From the NCBI GenBank assembly GCA_003212035.1, contig QCRA01000001.1, forward strand, positions 1-64,000: a stretch of DNA of 64,000 bases. The letters run 5' to 3'. The translations under genes and the position numbers were made by a program. Source of the stretch: Prochlorococcus sp. AG-459-D04. Lineage in GTDB: Bacteria; Cyanobacteriota; Cyanobacteriia; PCC-6307; Cyanobiaceae. How positions within the stretch are numbered: position 1 is the stretch's first letter; the number at the start of each line of letters is the position of its first letter. Positions 1,799 to 13,594 of the stretch are shown in pieces. Below the pieces are notes generated by a model. The model had not been told where the DNA came from. It did not search any database and was given only the letters and a program-made list of their open reading frames with translations.

Positions 1799-2584
1799 TT
1801 ATTTGCGATGTTTAGGAATCAAAAGAGATGCGACACAAATAACACTAATTGCGGGCCCTGGTGACAGATTAAAGACTAAAGAGAGAATAAAGCCCAGCAG
1901 AGAGATGAATAATCCAAAAAATGAAGATTTCATCATTGCAATTCTTAAACTTTGAGCCTTATTTAGCCCTAAGAGAGTTGGGGTAGAAAGAAGAGCAATA
2001 ACAAGAATTACTCCCACTGCTGACATTGAACTGACAATTACTAATGCTGTTGTAAAACTAAGCGCAAGATTTAATAAAGAAACATTTATACCACTCGCAG
2101 ATGCACCTTCTGGATCTAGTCCAACGTAAACAACCTTTTCATATCCAAAAGTTATCAAGATCATAAATACTAAAAATGCAATTATTGTTCTAATTAAATC
2201 CCCAAAATTTGCTGTCAATAAATCGCCAAATAATACTGCTTCCAAATCAATCCTTATTCCAAGTAGAGGAATAATAAGTACTCCAAAACCAAGCATTCCA
2301 GCGAGAATAGTGTTCATAACTGCTTCATAATTTTCACTTTTTCTATTAGTTAAACTTTCAGCAATTACAGAGCCTAAAAGACCACTTATAACACCACCAA
2401 TTGAGGGGTGAATTCCAAGCGCTAATGCGAGAGCAAGTCCAGGCAACACACAATGAGAGATCAAATTAACTTGTAATAATCTTTTATGAGTAATTAATAC
2501 AGTTCCCATTGCTGGACATAAGATCCCTGAAAAAATAGTTATTATTAATGGAACAGTCCACCAGTTGTTATTAATAAAAGACAT
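1799..2584 (-). CDS. znuB: Zinc/manganese ABC transporter permease (ZnuB family)
   Basis: Multi-TM ABC-3 family protein; znu gene neighbourhood. Confidence 0.85.
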   Translation of the reverse strand: MSFINNNWWTVPLIITIFSGILCPAMGTVLITHKRLLQVNLISHCVLPGLALALALGIHPSIGGVISGLLGSVIAESLTNRKSENYEAVMNTILAGMLGFGVLIIPLLGIRIDLEAVLFGDLLTANFGDLIRTIIAFLVFMILITFGYEKVVYVGLDPEGASASGINVSLLNLALSFTTALVIVSSMSAVGVILVIALLSTPTLLGLNKAQSLRIAMMKSSFFGLFISLLGFILSLVFNLSPGPAISVICVASLLIPKHRK

Positions 2585-2601: not shown

Positions 2602-3036
2602 ATGATCAGAATTACGGGCCATAAAAAGATCTCGAAAACAATGGTAACTAAGTCTGACATTACCAAAAGACAAGAACAACTTCTTGAAGAACTGAATAAC
2701 TGTGATGATGAATTGAGCGGACAAGAGTTGCATAGGCAGCTGATGACTAAAGGTAAATCTATGGGTTTGACAACTGTTTATAGAAATCTGCAAATCTTGA
2801 TAAAACATGGTTTAATTCGTTCTAGACATCTCCCAAATGGAGAAGTTCTTTATACTCCCGTTGATAGAGATATTCATCATTTGACCTGTGTTCAATGCGG
2901 AGAAACTTCGAAAATGGAAGGTTGTCCTGTTAAAGATATTCAAACGCCAAAAAAAAATCCCAAAAAGTTTCAACTTTTGTTTCATACACTCGAATATTTT
3001 GGACTTTGCCAAAACTGTTATCAAGCTCAAAATTAA
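2602..3036 (+). CDS. zur: Fur-family transcriptional regulator, probably Zur
   Basis: Fur winged helix (TTVYRNLQILIKHGLIR), HHLTCVQCG and CQNC motifs; lies between znuB and znuC. Likely start ATG 2641. Confidence 0.8.
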   Translation: MIRITGHKKISKTMVTKSDITKRQEQLLEELNNCDDELSGQELHRQLMTKGKSMGLTTVYRNLQILIKHGLIRSRHLPNGEVLYTPVDRDIHHLTCVQCGETSKMEGCPVKDIQTPKKNPKKFQLLFHTLEYFGLCQNCYQAQN

Positions 3037-3062: not shown

Positions 3063-3818
3063 TTATTTTTTGATAGAGCTAATATTTATTGCCTCTAATT
3101 TATCTTTTATTGAATCGGGACTACCAACTGCTAAAACAGCTTTATCAAGAACTATTACTTGATCGTAATTATTAAGAGACTCGCCCCAATCATGGCTACT
3201 CACAACTAAAGAAAGACCTACATCCGCAAGTTGACGAACAATTTTTAGAAAATCCTCTTTTGCAGGAGGATCCAAAGCCGCGCAAGGTTCGTCAAGAAGA
3301 AAGATTTTTGCAGGAGACATAAGAGTCTTTGCCAATAGAGCTCTTTGCTGTTGACCTCCAGAAAGAGAATCAAGTCTTCTATTAGCTAAATTAGCAATGC
3401 CAACCCTTTGCATTGTCGCCTCTAATTCGCAACATTTATTAATCCATGCATTAGGATATGCGAGAAGTGTTTTGATTTGAAAAGGAGTATTGCTTTTAGA
3501 TTTTGAATACTTTATTTGCCCAAGAGATACCAATTTTTCTACTGTAATTGGAAACTTCCAATTCATGGAACTTCTTTGGGGCATAAGAGCGACAAGGGAT
3601 CTAGATCTATGTAAGTTCTCACCATCAATTTTTATTTCGCCTTTATCTGGAGCATTCTGTCCTTGCAATATTTTTAATAAAGTAGATTTACCCGCACCGT
3701 TTGGACCAACTAGCGCTGTGAGAGTTCCAGGTTTGATCTCAACCGATACCTTATTTAAAGCTGGCTTACTTTTTTTAGTGTAGGAATAGGTTAAATTTTC
3801 AGCGACTAAAGTAGCCAT
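3063..3818 (-). CDS. znuC: Zinc/manganese ABC transporter ATP-binding protein
   Basis: Walker A GPNGAGKST, LSGGQQQR signature, LLDEP Walker B. Confidence 0.88.
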   Translation of the reverse strand: MATLVAENLTYSYTKKSKPALNKVSVEIKPGTLTALVGPNGAGKSTLLKILQGQNAPDKGEIKIDGENLHRSRSLVALMPQRSSMNWKFPITVEKLVSLGQIKYSKSKSNTPFQIKTLLAYPNAWINKCCELEATMQRVGIANLANRRLDSLSGGQQQRALLAKTLMSPAKIFLLDEPCAALDPPAKEDFLKIVRQLADVGLSLVVSSHDWGESLNNYDQVIVLDKAVLAVGSPDSIKDKLEAINISSIKK

Positions 3819-3914: not shown

Positions 3915-3929
3915 AAATGATTATCATTT
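3915..3929. promoter_or_regulatory. Fur/Zur-type operator in the znuC-znuA divergent region
   Basis: Perfect 7-1-7 palindrome AAATGATTATCATTT. Confidence 0.75.
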
Positions 3930-3932
3930 TTT

Positions 3933-5789
3933 ATGTATTTAATTTTTTTTATGTCAATTTTTAAAAGACTCTTAACAAATAAAACAACTGCAAGTAAGTC
4001 AATTATTAAAAATTCTGTTATCGCTGGAACGATTATATTTTCTGGTTTTGGGCAGGATGTCATGGCTAAAGGAAAATCATATGTAGCAGTAGAACCGCTA
4101 GTTTGTGATTTAGTTAAATCAATTGCATTACCTTCCGATGAAGTTACATGCTTAGTAGATAGAAAACAGGATGTTCATGACTTAAAGATCAATCCAAGGC
4201 AAGCTCAATTATTAAATAGCGCAGACAAAGTTTTCACTCTAGGTAAAGAAATGACTCCCACTATGAAAAACTGGGAAGATAAGTCAAATACTGTTGTGGT
4301 TGGTGTTAGTGCCATCGAAGTTGATAATCCTTCTAGTGAAGAGGGAGGAGCTTTTGAATGGGCTGGTCTTTTTGAACTTTCAGCAGGAAACTACAAATGG
4401 TCATTTGCGAAGGTTGATGGTGAATATGCAGACCCTGCTATGAAAATGGTCATTCTTGAATCAGATGACATTGAATTATCTGAAGAATTAGCAGAAGATC
4501 TATTGGGATCTGATCAAAATATTGAAAAAAGCAATGATGGTATTCTTTCTGCAAGTGACAAAGCTTACGTTTTAAATTTTGATCAAAAGAAAGATATCAC
4601 GGAATTTAATGTAGAAATCAAAAAAGATGGTAAGTATGCTTTCTTTACAGAACATATGCCTTTTGAATTTGAAGCAGATGAACACTTCTTTAAAGATCTA
4701 GCTAAAAATGATATCGAACCAGTTGCACAAGAACCTGATATGGGTGGCCATAGTGAACATGGCGCAGAAGGCTTTGAATGGGCAGGGACTTTTGATCTTG
4801 AGGAAGGATCATATAAATGGTCATTTGCAAAAGTCGATGGTGAATATGCAGATCCTGCTATGAAAATGGTTATCCTTAAATCTGGCGATATTGAAGAATC
4901 TGAAGAACTTGCTAAAGAACTTTTAGAATCTGATGATTCTATCTACAAAGCTGATAATGATGTTTTAATAGCCAGTTCAAAAGCAATATCACTTAATTTT
5001 GATCAAGGTAAAGAAAGCACAATATTTAATGTAGAAATCAAAAAAGATGGTAAATATACATTCTTCACAGAACATATGCCTTTTGAATTTGAAGCAGATG
5101 AACACTTCTTCAAAGATGTATCCAACAATGATGTAGAGCCTATTGCGCAAGTTCCAGATGAGGGAGACGGGCATCACCACCATCATCATGGACATGGAAG
5201 TTTGGACCCTCATGTATGGCATGATCCAACCAACATTATAAAAATGAGTAAAGTAATCTCAAAAAATCTAAAAAAGGATATCTCTATTTTTAACAGAAAA
5301 GATAGAAAATCCATCAATGAAAGAATTGATTCAACTGAATCTTTACTCAGCGGACTAAATGGATGGATTGTTGCACAGGTCTCAACAATACCTGAGCAAG
5401 ACAGGGTGCTTGTCTCAAAACACAAAGCTATGGATTATTATGGTGCTGCATACGGATTTGAGACAGTTAGTTTACTAGACTTCCTTGGCGATTCATCAAG
5501 CTTAAGACCTGAAAACATTAGTTCAACTTTGAATATGCTTAAGGAAGAAAATGTTAAGGCAATATTTCCAGAACAAATACCAGCTTCTAAGTTATTAAAA
5601 AACTTAAGTAGGCAAAGTTCTGTACCTTTAGCTTCTAATCAAATATTCGTTGATGGTTTAATGATGAAGGGAAATACTATAAGCGTTGCTGTTCACAACA
5701 CTTGTACAATTGTTAATTCATTAGGTGGAAGCTGTGATAAAGAATCTGGCTCCAATCTTGAGTCTGAATGGTACAAACTTTCAGATTAA
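3933..5789 (+). CDS. znuA: Zinc ABC transporter substrate-binding protein (ZnuA) with two inserted repeat domains and a His-rich loop
   Basis: VAVEPLVCDLVKSIA and LDPHVWHDP typical of ZnuA; HHHHHHGHG loop; likely start ATG 3951. Confidence 0.85.
   Translation: MYLIFFMSIFKRLLTNKTTASKSIIKNSVIAGTIIFSGFGQDVMAKGKSYVAVEPLVCDLVKSIALPSDEVTCLVDRKQDVHDLKINPRQAQLLNSADKVFTLGKEMTPTMKNWEDKSNTVVVGVSAIEVDNPSSEEGGAFEWAGLFELSAGNYKWSFAKVDGEYADPAMKMVILESDDIELSEELAEDLLGSDQNIEKSNDGILSASDKAYVLNFDQKKDITEFNVEIKKDGKYAFFTEHMPFEFEADEHFFKDLAKNDIEPVAQEPDMGGHSEHGAEGFEWAGTFDLEEGSYKWSFAKVDGEYADPAMKMVILKSGDIEESEELAKELLESDDSIYKADNDVLIASSKAISLNFDQGKESTIFNVEIKKDGKYTFFTEHMPFEFEADEHFFKDVSNNDVEPIAQVPDEGDGHHHHHHGHGSLDPHVWHDPTNIIKMSKVISKNLKKDISIFNRKDRKSINERIDSTESLLSGLNGWIVAQVSTIPEQDRVLVSKHKAMDYYGAAYGFETVSLLDFLGDSSSLRPENISSTLNMLKEENVKAIFPEQIPASKLLKNLSRQSSVPLASNQIFVDGLMMKGNTISVAVHNTCTIVNSLGGSCDKESGSNLESEWYKLSD
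4353..5159 (+). repeat. Tandem repeat of a ~130 aa domain within znuA (period 420 bp)
   Basis: FEWAG at 4353 and 4773; long identical stretches incl. SFAKVDGEYADPAMKMVIL and FFTEHMPFEFEADEHFFKD. Confidence 0.9.
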
Positions 5790-5866
5790 ATATTTCTAAT
5801 TAAAACGGTTTTCATTTCTTATTATTACTATTATAAGACTATTGTTTATTTAGTAAAAATCAGTAG

Positions 5867-7222
5867 ATGAGCATCAAAGATAAAGTTCCAGTAACGATCC
5901 TTACTGGATTCTTAGGTTCAGGGAAAACTACTTTGCTTAATAGAATATTAAGTGAAGAACATGGTAAAAGAATAGCCGTAATCGAGAATGAATACGGTGA
6001 AGTCGGTATAGATCAAGGACTCGTTATTAATGCGGATGAAGAAGTATTTGAGATGTCAAATGGGTGTATCTGTTGTACCGTTCGCGGAGATTTGATAAGA
6101 GTCCTTGGCAACCTTATGAAAAGAAGAGATAAGTTTGACTATGTATTGGTAGAAACAACGGGCTTGGCAGATCCTGGTCCCGTTGCCCAGACATTTTTCA
6201 TGGATGAAGAAATTAGTTCTGAATTTACTCTAGATGGAATTGTGACTTTAGTTGATGCTGCACATATTGATCAACAATTAGGAAGAAGTGATGAAAGTTC
6301 TGAACAAGTAGCATTTGCTGATGTTTTAGTGCTTAATAAAACAGATTTAGTTTCCTGTGATGAACTAGATACTCTTGAATCGAGATTAAGAGATATGAAT
6401 CGTATGACTCGAATTATTCGAGCCGAGAATGCCCAAGTACCAATAGAAACTGTTTTAAATCTTAGTGCATTTGATCTTGATCAAATTCTTAAACGAAGAC
6501 CAACATTTCTTGAACCAGAATATCCGTTTGAATGGACAGGCGTTTACGATCTTGCTGCAGGTAAGTATGAATTAATGCTCGAAGAGGGTCCCGATCCAGA
6601 AATGTCATTAGTAGCTCTCGCCAACCAAGGTGAGAGTGAAGAGGAACTTAAAGACGGTGCTGAATCCTCCGTAAGACTTTATGCAGAAAAAGCTAATAGT
6701 TTAGCTCCTGGGGATACCATCCCCTTTGGAGAACATATAAATCTCAAATTAGAGGATAAAGGTAATAAATCCTTCATACTGAACACAGAAAAGCCAACAA
6801 AAATTGGCTTATTTACACAGCATACTGCTGAAGAATTCAATATGAAAGTCGTTAAAATTGAAGAAAATAATTCAAAAGAGATTCCATTTAATACTGAAAG
6901 GTTCTGGCAAGCAGAGCACGAACATGATGATGAAGTTGGCTCAATTGCCATTGAGCGTTTTGGAGATGTTGATCCAGAAAAACTAAATACTTGGATGGGA
7001 AGGCTTCTCTCAGAAAAAGGGGTGGATATATTCAGAACTAAAGGTTTCATAAGTTACTCAGGGAACCCAAGGAAAATAGTTTTCCAAGGAGTGCACATGT
7101 TATTTACTGCACAACCTGACAAAGAATGGGGTAACGAACCTCGTAGAAACCAACTTGTTTTTATAGGTAGAAATTTGAACGAGAAAGAGATGCAAGAAGG
7201 CTTTGATAAATGCCTGATTTAG
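5867..7222 (+). CDS. CobW/COG0523-family GTPase (putative zinc metallochaperone) with inserted FEWxG domain
   Basis: GFLGSGKTTLLN P-loop, GCICC motif, NKTD; insert at ~6527-6868; HEHDD segment. Confidence 0.9.
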   Translation: MSIKDKVPVTILTGFLGSGKTTLLNRILSEEHGKRIAVIENEYGEVGIDQGLVINADEEVFEMSNGCICCTVRGDLIRVLGNLMKRRDKFDYVLVETTGLADPGPVAQTFFMDEEISSEFTLDGIVTLVDAAHIDQQLGRSDESSEQVAFADVLVLNKTDLVSCDELDTLESRLRDMNRMTRIIRAENAQVPIETVLNLSAFDLDQILKRRPTFLEPEYPFEWTGVYDLAAGKYELMLEEGPDPEMSLVALANQGESEEELKDGAESSVRLYAEKANSLAPGDTIPFGEHINLKLEDKGNKSFILNTEKPTKIGLFTQHTAEEFNMKVVKIEENNSKEIPFNTERFWQAEHEHDDEVGSIAIERFGDVDPEKLNTWMGRLLSEKGVDIFRTKGFISYSGNPRKIVFQGVHMLFTAQPDKEWGNEPRRNQLVFIGRNLNEKEMQEGFDKCLI

Positions 7223-8283
7223 AACCATTTAGCCCAAGAGGAATGTTCCACGAGGGATGGACAGCTGAAGTTAACGATTATGCCATAGCATGTGGCTGGG
7301 CTCTAAAGGGGAAACAATTTATTGTGGGTGACGTAGCAGGAGGTCTTTTTGCATTCGAAGGAGATACTGGAAAAATTGTTTGGGAAAAACAAAATACACA
7401 CTCTGGTGGTCTACTAGCACTGGCCATTCATCCCGAGGGAGAAATTTTTGCGACATCAGGTCAGGATGGCAATGTTCAAATTTGTAATTGCGATGAAGGT
7501 AAATTAATTAAAACACTTGATCTTGGCAAAGGTTGGGTAGAACACCTCAAGTGGTCTAATGACGGTTTATTTCTAGCGATAGCTTCATCAAAAAAAGTAT
7601 ATGTTTTTAATGAAAATGGGGAAGAGAAATGGATCTCGGAAGACCATCCAAGTACAGTAAGTGCAATAACATGGTCAAATAAAAATGAGTTAGCCACTGC
7701 TTGCTACGGAAGAGTAACTTTCTTTGACATAGTTAATAACAAAACGAATCAAAAACTAGAGTGGCAAGGGTCATTGGTATCAATGGAATTAAGTCCTGAT
7801 GGAGATATAGTCGCCTGCGGGAGTCAAGACAATTCTGTTCATTTCTGGAGAAGATCAACGGGAATGGATGCAGAAATGACTGGATATCCTGGGAAACCAA
7901 GTCACCTTTCTTTTGATGACAGCGGAAAATTACTAGCAACTAGTGGTAGTGAAAGAATTACAGTATGGAGCTTTATTGGAAATGGTCCAGAGGGGACTAT
8001 GCCAGGAGAGCTATGTCACCATACAGAACCGATTTCAAGCCTAGCCTTTTCAAATAAAGGTATGCTTGTAGCCTCAGGATCGAGGGATGGTTCTGTTGTT
8101 GCAAGTTTTTTAAAAAAAGACGGTAATGGAGACCCAGTTGGGGCTGCATTCGCCGGAGATCTAGTAGGAGCAATATCCTGGAGACCTGATGATTGTGCAC
8201 TTGCAGCAGTTAACGCAAAAGGTGTGGTGAATGTATGGAATTTCAAAGTCCGTACTAATCTTTTTTCAAAAGGATTTAAATAA
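7210..8283 (+). CDS. WD40 repeat beta-propeller protein
   Basis: Repeated LAIHPEGEIFATSGQDGNVQIC, SLAFSNKGMLVASGSRDGSV units; start overlaps cobW end by 13 nt. Confidence 0.85.
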   Translation: MPDLEPFSPRGMFHEGWTAEVNDYAIACGWALKGKQFIVGDVAGGLFAFEGDTGKIVWEKQNTHSGGLLALAIHPEGEIFATSGQDGNVQICNCDEGKLIKTLDLGKGWVEHLKWSNDGLFLAIASSKKVYVFNENGEEKWISEDHPSTVSAITWSNKNELATACYGRVTFFDIVNNKTNQKLEWQGSLVSMELSPDGDIVACGSQDNSVHFWRRSTGMDAEMTGYPGKPSHLSFDDSGKLLATSGSERITVWSFIGNGPEGTMPGELCHHTEPISSLAFSNKGMLVASGSRDGSVVASFLKKDGNGDPVGAAFAGDLVGAISWRPDDCALAAVNAKGVVNVWNFKVRTNLFSKGFK

Positions 8284-8300
8284 AAAGTAGAAATTGAAAA

Positions 8301-8456
8301 TTACCAATAGTTAGCTTTTAAATGCCTTTCCATACAAATGACCTCACAGTCATTATCTATACCTTTTGGGTGAATATCGCAATATGAAAGACATTGAAAA
8401 TATTCGTCTATAGGATTAGATTGATCAGTCTTACTAATTTCTTTGGAATGATTCAT
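8301..8456 (-). CDS. Small hypothetical protein with four Cys in two clusters (51 aa)
   Basis: MNHSKEISKTDQSNPIDEYFQCLSYCDIHPKGIDNDCEVICMERHLKANYW: twin CX3C; not in ORF track. Confidence 0.6.
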   Translation of the reverse strand: MNHSKEISKTDQSNPIDEYFQCLSYCDIHPKGIDNDCEVICMERHLKANYW

Positions 8457-8927
8457 AAAAGATTTCCTCAATTATTAAAGTCAAGATAGTCGAATTAAAT
8501 ATCAAAAGAAATAAGCAAAACTTACTAAATAAATCTCAAAAAAAAAACAGCAATTGATTTCTACTCTCGTACATTTTTAAACAGAAATCAATGCGTATAA
8601 TAACGGATTGTTTTTAGAGAAATATTTTCCTAATTTTAAATTGATGAGTTCTAGGAGGTCTTTCAAAATGATCGATAGCCTGCCTGAAATTTCGGAATAA
8701 ACCGAACTAATTTAATTAACTGCTCCAATTATTTTTTATTAATGTCTAAGCTTCCTTCTTTTGCATCGTTTAGGTGCCCTTTAAGAAACAAGCTTAATTC
8801 TAGAGTTTTTGCCCCAGTTAAAAACAATTAGTTAATTTTGGTGAGCATTAGCTTAAAAGTAGTTAGCAACAAGGATCCAAGATTTAGGTGCGTTATTAAC
8901 TTCAGGAAAAAATATAAGTAAGAGATC

Positions 8928-8956
8928 AAAGAGGGCTTAATAAAGCCCTCTTTTTT
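8928..8956 (+). terminator. Rho-independent terminator
   Basis: AAAGAGGGCTT-AATA-AAGCCCTCTTT followed by T-run. Confidence 0.8.
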
Positions 8957-9022
8957 AGTTACAAAAAATAAGATGACATTATACTAGCCTCGTAGATAAT
9001 GATTAAAACAGTAAATTAAAAG

Positions 9023-9307
9023 ATGATTAGATATTATTGCCCCTATTGCAATCCTAAATATCAATTTCAAAAACAATCTTCAAAAGGTACTCTAATTTGT
9101 GGCTTGTGCGGAGAGGATCTTGTAAAAAAACCATTTATTAGGTTAAACCAAATAATTGCTTTAGTTGCTGTGTCGTCTTTACTTCTGCCTCTAATATATA
9201 CCTTTATTTTTTTAATTAAAAATCAAATCAATCCTCCTAATAAAAATTATCAAGCAAATAGTCAATTGATGATAGGCATCAAAGATCAAATATATAAAAT
9301 AAATTAA
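9023..9307 (+). CDS. Small zinc-ribbon membrane protein
   Basis: CPYC...CGLCG knuckles followed by one TM helix. Confidence 0.55.
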   Translation: MIRYYCPYCNPKYQFQKQSSKGTLICGLCGEDLVKKPFIRLNQIIALVAVSSLLLPLIYTFIFLIKNQINPPNKNYQANSQLMIGIKDQIYKIN

Positions 9308-9452: not shown

Positions 9453-9477
9453 AATAAAAATGATTATCATTTTTATT
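9453..9477. promoter_or_regulatory. Fur/Zur-type operator 1 upstream of cyanate cluster
   Basis: Perfect 12-1-12 palindrome AATAAAAATGATTATCATTTTTATT. Confidence 0.7.
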
Positions 9478-9500: not shown

Positions 9501-9517
9501 AAAATGATAATCATTTT
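9501..9517. promoter_or_regulatory. Fur/Zur-type operator 2 upstream of cyanate cluster
   Basis: Perfect 8-1-8 palindrome AAAATGATAATCATTTT. Confidence 0.68.
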
Positions 9518-9696: not shown

Positions 9697-11382
9697 ATGA
9701 TTGTTCCAGCTAGTAATTTTACTCAAAAATATAATTTTGAATGTAAAACCTCAAATCAGATTTCAGAAAATAACCCATCGAGTAATAAAACTTTTCTTAA
9801 AAATAACTTTTTAAATCCATCAAACGATCATGGTTATTTCTGTGCATGCGTAGAATGTCGACCAATAGGAAATGATCATGAAAATTTTATGGCAGACATG
9901 CCAGATGACCCTGCTGAAATAATTTCAGATTTTTCTAGGATGGGGCTCATCAAAAATGAGGCTTATGAAATTGCTGATGCTATTTCAACTGCAGAAATGA
10001 GAGATCTTTTATTTTATAAAAACGCTTCAAATGGTGATCCATATAAAGAACAATTGCTTAGAGAATTAGCTAAAGAGGCTGGTGGGTTAGATCAAGCCTT
10101 TCAAGCAGCATTTGGACCTCAAGCAGGTAAATTTTTTGCTAAAACAAAAGCTTCTTCTCCAATGGGAAGAAGACAGTTTTTATCCAGCTTGGCTGCAGGT
10201 GCAGCGTTAATTACAGTAGCTTGTTCAAACCAAAATAAACCTGCTAAACAACCAATTGATGACACTCCTATTAATGTTAATAACTTAGAAAAACAAACCC
10301 TGAGAGTTGGTTTCATACCTATAACTTGTGCCTCTCCAATAATAATGGCCGAACCTATGGGTTTCTACAACAAGTTTGGTATGGATGTAAAAGTTGTCAA
10401 AATGCCAAGTTGGGGAGCTGTTAGAGATTCTGCAATTGCTGGTGAATTAGATGCCTACCATATGCTAGCTCCAATGCCAATTTCCATGACACTTGGATTA
10501 GGAACTGCACCATTTAGCGTGAAACTAGCAAGCATTGAAAATATAAATGGACAAGCTATTACTGTTGCTAACCGTCATAAAGGAAAAGTTAATGGTCCTG
10601 CCGATATGAAAGGATTCGTTTTTGGAGTTCCATTCCCATACTCAATGCATAATCTTTTATTGAGATATTATCTAGCCAAAGGTGGGGTTGATCCAGATAA
10701 AGACGTTCAGATTCGTCCTGTTCCACCACCAGATAGTATTGCACAATTAGTTGCTGGTGATATCGACGCATACTTAATGCCTGATCCATTTAATCAAAGG
10801 GCAGTTTACGAAGATGCAGGTTTTATACATCTTCTTACTAAAGAATTATGGCCTGGCCATCCATGTTGTGCGTTTGCAGCTGGGGAACCTTGGATTAAAG
10901 AACATCCTGAAACTTTCAGAGCTCTTAATAAATCTATTATTGATGCTGCTGCTTATGTCTCAACTCCTTCTAACAGAAAAGAAGTCGCTAAAGCTATTTC
11001 TGGAAGAGGATTTCTAAACCAACCTACAGAAGTTGTTGAAGCTGTTCTTACAGGCAAATTTGAAGATGGATTAGGTAAAACACAAAATGTTCCAGACAGA
11101 ATTGACTTTAAACCCTACCCTTGGCAAAGCTTCTCACATTGGATTCAATCTCAATTAATTCGTTGGGATTTAGGAGGTGCAGTTGCTGCTATTCAAGCAG
11201 GCGATTTTAACCCTAATAGCGCTTCAATATTTTTAACAGATGAAGCTCAAGCCCTCGAAAGGGAAATGGGAGGCAATCCACCAACAGCAAGGTTTAGAAA
11301 AGAAATCTTAGCTTATGATGAATTTGACCCTAGCAATCCAATTAAATACATTAAAGATCAAATTAAAAGGGATGGTTTTTAA
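9697..11382 (+). CDS. cynA: Cyanate/nitrate-type ABC transporter substrate-binding protein, with ~155 aa N-terminal extension before a Tat-like lipoprotein signal
   Basis: NrtA/CmpA-like binding protein; GRRQFLSSLAAGAALITVACS at residue ~156; next to permease, ATPase and cyanase. Confidence 0.8.
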   Translation: MIVPASNFTQKYNFECKTSNQISENNPSSNKTFLKNNFLNPSNDHGYFCACVECRPIGNDHENFMADMPDDPAEIISDFSRMGLIKNEAYEIADAISTAEMRDLLFYKNASNGDPYKEQLLRELAKEAGGLDQAFQAAFGPQAGKFFAKTKASSPMGRRQFLSSLAAGAALITVACSNQNKPAKQPIDDTPINVNNLEKQTLRVGFIPITCASPIIMAEPMGFYNKFGMDVKVVKMPSWGAVRDSAIAGELDAYHMLAPMPISMTLGLGTAPFSVKLASIENINGQAITVANRHKGKVNGPADMKGFVFGVPFPYSMHNLLLRYYLAKGGVDPDKDVQIRPVPPPDSIAQLVAGDIDAYLMPDPFNQRAVYEDAGFIHLLTKELWPGHPCCAFAAGEPWIKEHPETFRALNKSIIDAAAYVSTPSNRKEVAKAISGRGFLNQPTEVVEAVLTGKFEDGLGKTQNVPDRIDFKPYPWQSFSHWIQSQLIRWDLGGAVAAIQAGDFNPNSASIFLTDEAQALEREMGGNPPTARFRKEILAYDEFDPSNPIKYIKDQIKRDGF

Positions 11383-11448
11383 TTTATAAGAAATTATATC
11401 TTTTGGTATTTATTAATACTCCAATTTTGATTTTCTAGTTAAATAATC

Positions 11449-12237
11449 TTGAAGATGAACAAAGCTATTTCTACAAGGCTTACCTTTGCAGTAGCAATTT
11501 TGAGCCTCTTAATATTTATCATTCTTTGGCAAGTAATTGCTCAACAAGGTTTATTAGTCAAGAATTTCCCAGGGTCATTTAAAACAATAGGATCATTAAT
11601 TTGGTGGGTATCAGATCCATTTTTTGATAATGGTCCAAATGATTTGGGAATTGGAACTAACTTACTTATAAGTTTAAGAAGAGTATTAATCGGATATAGC
11701 TTGGCTGTTTTAGTCGCTATTCCTTTGGGGGTTCTAATGGGGATGTCGAAGTTAGCTCAGTCTTCTTTAAATCCATATGTGCAACTTTTAAAACCTGTTT
11801 CCCCTTTAGCTTGGCTACCTGTAGGACTTTTTGTTTTTAGAAACTCAGAGATCACAGGCATTTTTGTGATTTTCATCACAAGTATTTGGCCAACATTAAT
11901 TAATACTGCATTTGGTGTGGCTAGTATTAATCCTGATTATTTGAGAGTTTCTAAATCTTTAGGAGCAAGTAAATCAATAACTATTAGGAGGGTTATTTTG
12001 CCCGCAATTATGCCAAATATTCTTGCAGGTATGAGAATATCAATGGGAACAGCTTGGCTTGTTATTGTTGCTGCAGAAATGCTATTGGGTACAGGAATTG
12101 GTTATTTTATTTGGAATGAATGGAATAATTTATCTCTTGAAAATATATTTGTTGCAATAATAATTATTGGTTTTACAGGATTTATTTTGGATCAATTTTT
12201 TGGATTTCTTCAAGATAAATTCGACTACAGTATCTAA
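11449..12237 (+). CDS. cynB: Cyanate/nitrate-type ABC transporter permease
   Basis: BPD_transp_1 type; SLGASKSITIRRVILPAIMPNILAGMR EAA-like loop. Confidence 0.82.
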   Translation: MKMNKAISTRLTFAVAILSLLIFIILWQVIAQQGLLVKNFPGSFKTIGSLIWWVSDPFFDNGPNDLGIGTNLLISLRRVLIGYSLAVLVAIPLGVLMGMSKLAQSSLNPYVQLLKPVSPLAWLPVGLFVFRNSEITGIFVIFITSIWPTLINTAFGVASINPDYLRVSKSLGASKSITIRRVILPAIMPNILAGMRISMGTAWLVIVAAEMLLGTGIGYFIWNEWNNLSLENIFVAIIIIGFTGFILDQFFGFLQDKFDYSI

Positions 12238-13117
12238 ACCTATTGATTACATGAATAAAAAATCATCAAAAATATCTACTTCAAATAAAAATTATTCTCA
12301 CCTTGAATTAGTGAATTTAGGAAAGATTTTTTTTAAAGAAAAGAAGTTTATTGATTTTCGCTCCAAAGGAAATAGAAGTGGGTTTGAAGCTATTAAAGAT
12401 ATTAACCTAAAGATAGAGAAGAACACATTTGTATCAATAATAGGTCCTTCTGGTTGTGGAAAATCAACATTGCTAAATTTAATAGCAGGCTTACAAGCGC
12501 CAACATCTGGGAAAATTATTATTGACGGACAAGCCATAAAAGGTCCAGGTCCCGATAGAGGTGTTATTTTTCAAAATTACGCTTTGATGCCATGGTTAAC
12601 AACTATTCAAAATATTGAATTTGCCTTAAATACTGTTTTCCCAGCAAAAACAAAAGCTGATGTTAAAGATAGAGCTAGAAAATATTTACGAATGGTTGGT
12701 TTAGAAAAAGCTTCAAACAAATTTCCAAAAGAATTATCTGGAGGAATGAAGCAAAGAGTTGCAATTGCCAGAGCCTTATCTATTAATCCAAATATGTTGT
12801 TAATGGATGAACCCTTTGGGGCTCTGGATGCATTAACCAGATCCTATTTACAAGATGAATTATTATCCATTTGGAGAAAAAATAAAGTAACTGTTGTTTT
12901 AATTACTCATAGCATTGAAGAAGCATTGCTTTTGTCTGACAAGATTGTTTTGATGTCAAGCGGTCCTTCTGCCATAATTTCTGAGGAAATTTCAGTTGAT
13001 TTAGAAAGACCAAGAGATAGAGAAAAAATTGAACAAGATCCTACATATTTAAAAATTAAAATGCGTTTGGAAAAACATCTTTTAAGAGAAACAAGAGCTG
13101 TAGAAGAGGTTACTTAG
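12167..13117 (+). CDS. cynD: Cyanate/nitrate-type ABC transporter ATPase (likely start 12251)
   Basis: GPSGCGKST, LSGGMKQR, LLMDEPFGALD. Confidence 0.85.
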   Translation: MVLQDLFWINFLDFFKINSTTVSKPIDYMNKKSSKISTSNKNYSHLELVNLGKIFFKEKKFIDFRSKGNRSGFEAIKDINLKIEKNTFVSIIGPSGCGKSTLLNLIAGLQAPTSGKIIIDGQAIKGPGPDRGVIFQNYALMPWLTTIQNIEFALNTVFPAKTKADVKDRARKYLRMVGLEKASNKFPKELSGGMKQRVAIARALSINPNMLLMDEPFGALDALTRSYLQDELLSIWRKNKVTVVLITHSIEEALLLSDKIVLMSSGPSAIISEEISVDLERPRDREKIEQDPTYLKIKMRLEKHLLRETRAVEEVT

Positions 13118-13150: not shown

Positions 13151-13594
13151 ATGACTTTACCCTCATTTACACAAATACTATTAACAGCAAAAAAAGAAAA
13201 AAAATTATCCTTTGAGGATTTAGGTAAATTGATTAATAGAGATGAAGTATGGGTTGCAAGCTTATTTTATGGGCAAGCCACAGCTTCTGTAGAAGAAGCT
13301 AATATTTTAATTAAAGCTCTTGATTTACAATCAGAATTAGAAGATCAATTAACAACACCACCATTAAAAGGCTGCCTAGATCCTGTTATTCCTACAGATC
13401 CACTAATTTACAGATTCTATGAAATAATGCAAGTATATGGGCTTCCAATGAAGGATGTGATACAAGAAAAATTTGGTGATGGAATTATGAGTGCAATTGA
13501 CTTTTCAATTGAAGTTGATAAAGTAGAAGACCCAAAAGGGGATCGGGTATTAGTAAAAATGTGTGGTAAATTCTTGCCCTATAAAAAGTGGTAG
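13151..13594 (+). CDS. cynS: Cyanate hydratase (cyanase)
   Basis: [64 protein letters not shown]. Confidence 0.95.

Follow-up and report, generated by a model that had tools for sequence, protein, structure and literature searches.

A domain of about 110 residues, as yet without a name and scattered widely among metal-trafficking proteins, occurs three times in the window, the 64,000-nucleotide stretch of Prochlorococcus sp. AG-459-D04 analysed here (contig QCRA01000001.1, positions 1 to 64,000). Two copies lie within the zinc-binding protein ZnuA and one within the COG0523/CobW-type GTPase encoded next to it. The recurrence of the domain in bacteria and archaea, mostly in genes for metal import or delivery, indicates that it probably helps to capture or hand over scarce metal. 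We estimate at about even the chance that it represents an unnamed family of beta-sandwich domains acting as accessory modules for the capture or transfer of metal in proteins that traffic transition metals.

An initial annotation of the window had placed two copies in ZnuA and one in CobW, and its sequences, coordinates and residue pattern were reproduced with matches far above chance, while its length of roughly 130 residues was too great, the domain measuring about 105-118 residues. Its broader interpretation, a shared domain of metal-related hosts without a named family, also stood, but the residues assigned to a metal site did so only in part, and the sensing, buffering or hand-over of zinc suggested there stays a proposal. 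The neighbouring WD40 gene, the His-rich setting and the apparent age of the two branches had been missed.

Homology, conservation and predicted fold of the three copies

The copies, with their candidate ligands, and the linker between the first two were located as follows.

4353-4706, plus strand: domain copy 1, ZnuA residues 141-258; candidate ligands E142, D167, H241 and E245 (alignment)
4707-4772, plus strand: inter-domain linker (NDIEPVAQEPDMGGHSEHGAEG), remnant of the upstream His-rich loop (sequence)
4773-5126, plus strand: domain copy 2, ZnuA residues 281-398; candidate ligands E282, D307, H381 and E385 (alignment)
6527-6865, plus strand: CobW domain copy, residues 221-333; candidate ligands E222, D243, H319 and E323 (alignment)

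A tblastn search of the whole genome with copy 2 recovered copy 1 at 74% identity (E = 1e-53) and the CobW insert at 39% (E = 5e-6), and no further copies beyond these three. Profile-profile comparison of the ZnuA-type and CobW-type alignments (hhalign Prob 98.8, E = 1e-16, 102 columns) established that a single homologous domain is present in both proteins, as had been claimed. The ZnuA copies sit within the loop that joins the first half of ZnuA to the segment LDPHVWHDP, a position occupied by the His-rich loop of zinc-binding proteins, and they split the PF01297 match into two stretches. The CobW copy separates the GTPase domain from CobW_C and lies shortly before the motif HEHDDE. The N terminus of ZnuA, judged by eye, resembles a signal peptide, so that the two ZnuA copies would be extracytoplasmic and the CobW copy cytoplasmic.

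Although identity falls to about 21% among 22 diverse copies, six positions were invariant in all of them, namely Glu2, Gly12, Asp23, His99, Glu103 and Phe104 (CobW-insert numbering), with Trp3 in 21 and Met26 in 18 copies. A metal site of Trp, Asp, Met, His and Glu had been proposed; the conservation is consistent with the Asp, His and Glu residues of that set and not with Trp and Met. Glu2, Asp23, His99 and Glu103 are the best candidates for ligand or contact residues.

No Pfam or NCBIfam model exceeded its cut-off in the domain region in library scans, and no sequence in the PDB covered the domain, the best match (sc-CC-7-LI, 8qai_A; E = 0.008 over 38 residues) being taken as chance; the statement that no named family could be recognised therefore held. 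A different fold for the CobW insert had been named as a finding that would refute the shared module. AlphaFold models of both types were beta-sandwiches with the same order of three strands, a helix and then more strands, and as both were built on a mixed alignment this agreement is not fully independent. A Foldseek search against the PDB gave no match at E <= 0.001 (best E = 0.02), and the nearest structures were generic beta-sandwiches including GOLD, CBM35 and viral jelly rolls.

The CBM35 structures were listed by Foldseek for both models, at E 0.2-0.4, and matches below the Pfam cut-offs were obtained to CBM_35 (17.3 bits against 28, E = 0.006, full ZnuA) and PA14 (E = 0.14). These would fit a divergent carbohydrate-binding or pre-peptidase beta-sandwich (CBM35, PA14 or PPC) with an ordinary binding role. 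None of them reached a family cut-off or a better Foldseek value than that above, however, and a cytoplasmic copy and hosts that mainly handle metal are ill suited to sugar binding, which leaves this explanation highly improbable. As regards ZinT, the domain has one invariant His and no Pfam ZinT match, and there was no ZinT among the Foldseek matches listed.

Hosts and gene neighbourhood

The scan of genome contigs, in which the best 80 of 444 matches were taken, returned Prochlorococcus and Synechococcaceae exclusively, so that the wider breadth comes from plasmids and from a few genomes of the phylum of the window. Domain-bearing genomes numbered 62 of 201 in the family of the window and 23 of 297 in an even sample of the phylum, and ZnuA relatives with zero, one or two copies were present across 61 genomes of the genus. 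Haloarchaeal ZnuA proteins of Haloarcula (two species), Halorubrum and Halorientalis carry the domain nested in HDHGHEEDHEGEHE-like loops, stand-alone haloarchaeal lipoproteins (Halosolutus, Halomontanus and Natrinema) combine it with His-rich ends, and an Alicyclobacillus membrane protein contains it near metal regulators and transporters. Outside the family, CobW proteins with the domain were found in Pantoea, Paraburkholderia and five genomes of the phylum. The picocyanobacterial and haloarchaeal ZnuA, the Alicyclobacillus protein and the haloarchaeal lipoproteins all set the domain in or beside His-rich segments, and the CobW hosts carry it just before an HxH motif.

The expectation that the domain would be found mainly in metal genes was met by these hosts, ZnuA and COG0523 proteins, and by its occurrence beside ZnuB, ZIP, NicO and urease genes; membership of a known non-metal family occurring mostly outside metal loci was not observed. 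No relative was encoded on the viral contigs scanned and none was found in phages. Assignment of the Alicyclobacillus protein as NicO/RcnA-like on the basis of an HSILPDHW motif was rejected since no profile supports it, and it is called here a membrane protein only. A double copy in the Synechococcus-like genome G284 extends across a gap of N letters and probably reflects misassembly.

In the window the gene order is znuB (minus), fur/zur (plus), znuC (minus), a Zur-type box, znuA (plus), cobW (plus) and WD40 (plus). The G+C content of the Prochlorococcus genome is 32%, and the closest relatives of its ZnuA in the ZnuA tree are from Prochlorococcus.

1799-2584, minus strand: znuB-like ATP-binding cassette (ABC) permease (open reading frame; type from sequence reading and position by znuC and zur)
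2602-3036, plus strand: Fur-family regulator, probably Zur (open reading frame; assigned from sequence and position)
3063-3818, minus strand: znuC-like ABC ATPase, divergent from znuA (open reading frame and sequence)
3916-3928, no strand: perfect Zur/Fur-type palindrome AATGATTATCATT, between znuC and znuA (shuffle test)
3933-5789, plus strand: znuA with two domain copies, 618 residues (open reading frame; Pfam ZnuA PF01297, E = 7.5e-41)
5172-5198, plus strand: His-rich stretch HHHHHHGHG, immediately 5' of the ZnuA core LDPHVWHDP (sequence)
5867-7222, plus strand: COG0523/CobW-type G3E GTPase with one domain copy, 451 residues (open reading frame; Pfam)
6062-6076, plus strand: GCICC metal motif of the GTPase, residues 66-70 (sequence)
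6917-6934, plus strand: short His motif HEHDDE, between the domain and CobW_C (sequence)
7210-8283, plus strand: WD40 beta-propeller gene, with a 13-base overlap with the end of cobW (open reading frame; library scan)

The ATG at 3951 is a more likely start for znuA than position 3933. By profile ZnuA is classed as a cluster A-I zinc-binding protein with a predicted role in zinc transport, and it has the His-rich loop near the metal cleft that characterises the family (HHHHHHGHG before LDPHVWHDP). CobW matched cobW PF02492 (E = 1e-60, residues 8-184) and CobW_C PF07683 (E = 3e-24, residues 358-450), and the sections of the COG0523 survey drawn on here give GCxCC as the defining motif of that family (PMC2770081). 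Six matches to the Zur/Fur-type palindrome were observed in the window, a number reached in 0 of 100 shuffles, and a Zur box is likewise located between znuC and znuA in Synechococcus WH8102 (PMC9337993). Further perfect palindromes (AATGATTATCATT and AATGATAATCATT) at 9459-9471 and 9503-9515 precede an operon for an ABC transporter (9697-13117), after which comes a cyanase-like gene (13151-13594); this arrangement suggests metal control of a cyanate-type operon.

The WD40 gene was directly downstream of cobW in all 78 Prochlorococcus loci with enough sequence, and it also directly followed the CobW-domain gene in L039, L041, L151, L152, L154 and L157, the exception being L153, where the CobW end looks broken. 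A WD40 homolog was present in three picocyanobacterial genomes with a CobW-domain gene and in none of the 10 searched without one. Such near-absolute pairing would be expected of a protein-docking module without metal, in which the CobW copy docks WD40, the ZnuA and lipoprotein copies dock some other partner and the conserved polar residues form the interface. The generic beta-sandwich, which resembles the interaction folds GOLD and CBM35 although not significantly, and a candidate site that is unusual for zinc are also in its favour. However, no WD40 gene was located near the domain in the haloarchaeal ZnuA, the haloarchaeal lipoproteins or the Alicyclobacillus protein, and docking leaves unexplained why the domain is nested time and again within His-rich loops of metal proteins that are not related to one another, and why the same four polar residues never vary between archaeal and bacterial copies. 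We consider docking possible but doubtful.

Metal transporter genes adjoin the cobW-domain-WD40 pair in two non-family genomes, with a NicO-family transporter (8248-9060) in L151 and an ABC-3 permease, a ZIP gene and NicO (4921-5739) in L157. At two loci cobW is preceded, at a distance of about 60 bp, by a Zur-type box of its own: L158, in a genome with the domain in CobW only, and L177, where cobW is far from znuA. Metals other than zinc may also be involved, as some relatives are neighbours of urease maturation genes or of nickel/cobalt transporters of the NicO type. On a Natrinema versiforme plasmid a domain lipoprotein (L180:4872-5423) directly follows ureC, a gamma subunit, ureG, ureD, ureE and ureF. 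Upstream of the haloarchaeal ZnuA-domain gene of L035/L036 are two GTP-binding genes, a gene with a molybdenum cofactor synthesis domain, an iron-sulfur scaffold and a cobalt-factor II methyltransferase, and a cobalt link of this operon is possible. A CobW relative of 347 residues in G300 (L175:5257-6297, next to a Fur-family gene) was rejected as an insert-less ancestor; it has a truncated CobW_C with remnants of WD40-like sequence behind it, and was read as a decayed cobW-WD40 locus.

Copy number and descent of the domain

A census covered 80 Prochlorococcus loci, of which 70 had a complete znuA. The encoded ZnuA carried no domain copy in 13 of the 70, one copy in 48 and two in 9, while every readable CobW gene carried one. 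Two-copy ZnuA had a single origin inside the one-copy clade (support 100), and in L128 a ZnuA copy was recently lost with the gene left intact. The upstream HSDHGGHDD repeats are gone from the two-copy alleles, which have about 10 His outside the domains compared to about 19 in one-copy alleles. One Prochlorococcus genome, G042, has two znuA genes (C1:354537-356066 and C1:977399-978550), one with a single domain copy at a distance from cobW, the other without the domain and immediately preceding cobW.

The variable number in ZnuA, the intact gene after the L128 loss and the general tolerance of loops for inserts would be compatible with a mobile or neutral insert, or a spacer that stiffens long His-rich loops, without a function of its own. 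Against this stand the six invariant positions, the retention of the domain in all readable CobW genes and the concentration of its hosts among metal-trafficking proteins, and a spacer is regarded as quite improbable.

The adjacency of znuA and cobW in one operon and the 39% identity of their copies could also reflect local gene conversion, the ZnuA copy being a recent copy of the CobW insert and so uninformative on a shared function. In the domain tree, however, all CobW copies were separated from the ZnuA, lipoprotein and membrane-protein copies (92/90, not starred), and the extracytoplasmic type united picocyanobacterial with haloarchaeal ZnuA. A clade of picocyanobacterial ZnuA and CobW copies was rejected by the approximately unbiased test (p-AU 0.009, a post hoc comparison with long branches), and little credence is left for local copying. 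The ZnuA-type and CobW-type copies appear from these trees to be old, separate branches, and it is probable that the two versions came together in one operon, neither being derived from the other.

Proposed role and comparison with known systems

Under the metal-capture and metal-transfer reading, the ZnuA domain and His-rich loop would together gather the scarce zinc available outside the inner membrane and deliver it to the cleft of ZnuA, in the manner of the ZinT-type domain of AdcA. The cytoplasmic version in the COG0523 GTPase, with the co-encoded WD40 propeller, may serve in metal receipt or delivery, and the CobW insert might provide an additional site for holding or docking, WD40 being its partner. 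The metal is most likely zinc in the window, and nickel or cobalt would be possible in relatives. A stronger proposal, that the domain is a currency of metal transfer, is thought unlikely. In it the ZnuA copies and the WD40-bound COG0523 copy would share the four-residue site in a two-compartment hand-over along one import route, for zinc or for cobalt or nickel in relatives, after spreading independently, in bacteria and archaea, to ZnuA, to G3E GTPases, to lipoproteins and to a membrane protein.

Several observations weigh against a metal-handling role. One His with three carboxylates is an atypical set for zinc, though usable by Zn, Mn or Ca. The domain is dispensable in ZnuA, as the 13 complete Prochlorococcus genes without it demonstrate, and as the two-copy allele arose once, the exchange of His residues for a domain is one event and not a correlation. 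The haloarchaeal stand-alone genes L034 and L042 have no metal neighbours, and confidence in the models was moderate (pLDDT, the predicted local distance difference test, 76.9 and 70.5).

A domain common to the binding protein of an importer and the adjacent cytoplasmic GTPase bears on zinc delivery inside bacteria and on the donors to COG0523 GTPases, and provides a small, soluble and testable piece of the zinc route. Few photosynthetic genera in zinc-poor oceans are more abundant than the host genus. A profile of the domain would let annotators recognise such genes, and the natural zero-, one- and two-copy alleles are a ready-made comparison.

The annotated ZnuA cluster was described as almost absent from Prochlorococcus in a 2021 review (PMC8786288), whereas most genomes searched here hold a ZnuA-like gene of this kind and the window has a locus with znuBC and a Zur box. 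Relatives of the GTPase take up Zn or Co at CxCC, and this uptake depends on GTP (PMC7895991). In the consulted sections of the survey by Haas 2009 (PMC2770081), COG0523 subfamily 5 clusters with WD40 and znuABC, several members are predicted to be Zur-regulated and Prochlorococcus COG0523 genes downstream of putative Zur sites are reported. The window CobW resembles this subfamily by gene neighbourhood, with WD40 directly downstream and znuABC adjacent; the same sections of the subfamily 5 account make no mention of an inserted folded domain or of its presence in ZnuA.

The periplasmic zinc chaperone AztD, which transfers zinc directly (PMC6689063), is likewise a beta-propeller, associated with a binding protein of the ZnuA type and in many cases with CobW genes. 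It is a secreted protein with eight blades, whereas the WD40 protein here has no signal peptide evident by eye and follows a cytoplasmic GTPase. The Anabaena exoprotein ZepA (PMC10957091), compared by features, is also cyanobacterial and Zur-linked, with a beta-sandwich part and a role in zinc uptake, but has an H-x(2-9)-H-F/Y-H site, a motif absent from the present domain, and PEP-CTERM.

The closest parallel in arrangement is AdcA, a cluster A-I zinc-binding protein with an extra domain besides its His-rich loop, the two being thought to capture zinc jointly. The AdcA domain is C-terminal and lipocalin-like (ZinT) with a 3-His site, whereas the domain described here has another fold, is nested in the loop, lacks a 3-His site and is also found in a cytoplasmic GTPase. 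Transfer of zinc from the accessory domain through the loop to the cleft of AdcA has been proposed, and in Streptococcus pneumoniae the two are redundant, zinc-limited growth suffering only without both (PMC7858048). Redundancy of this type would allow the exchange of His residues for a domain copy seen in Prochlorococcus.

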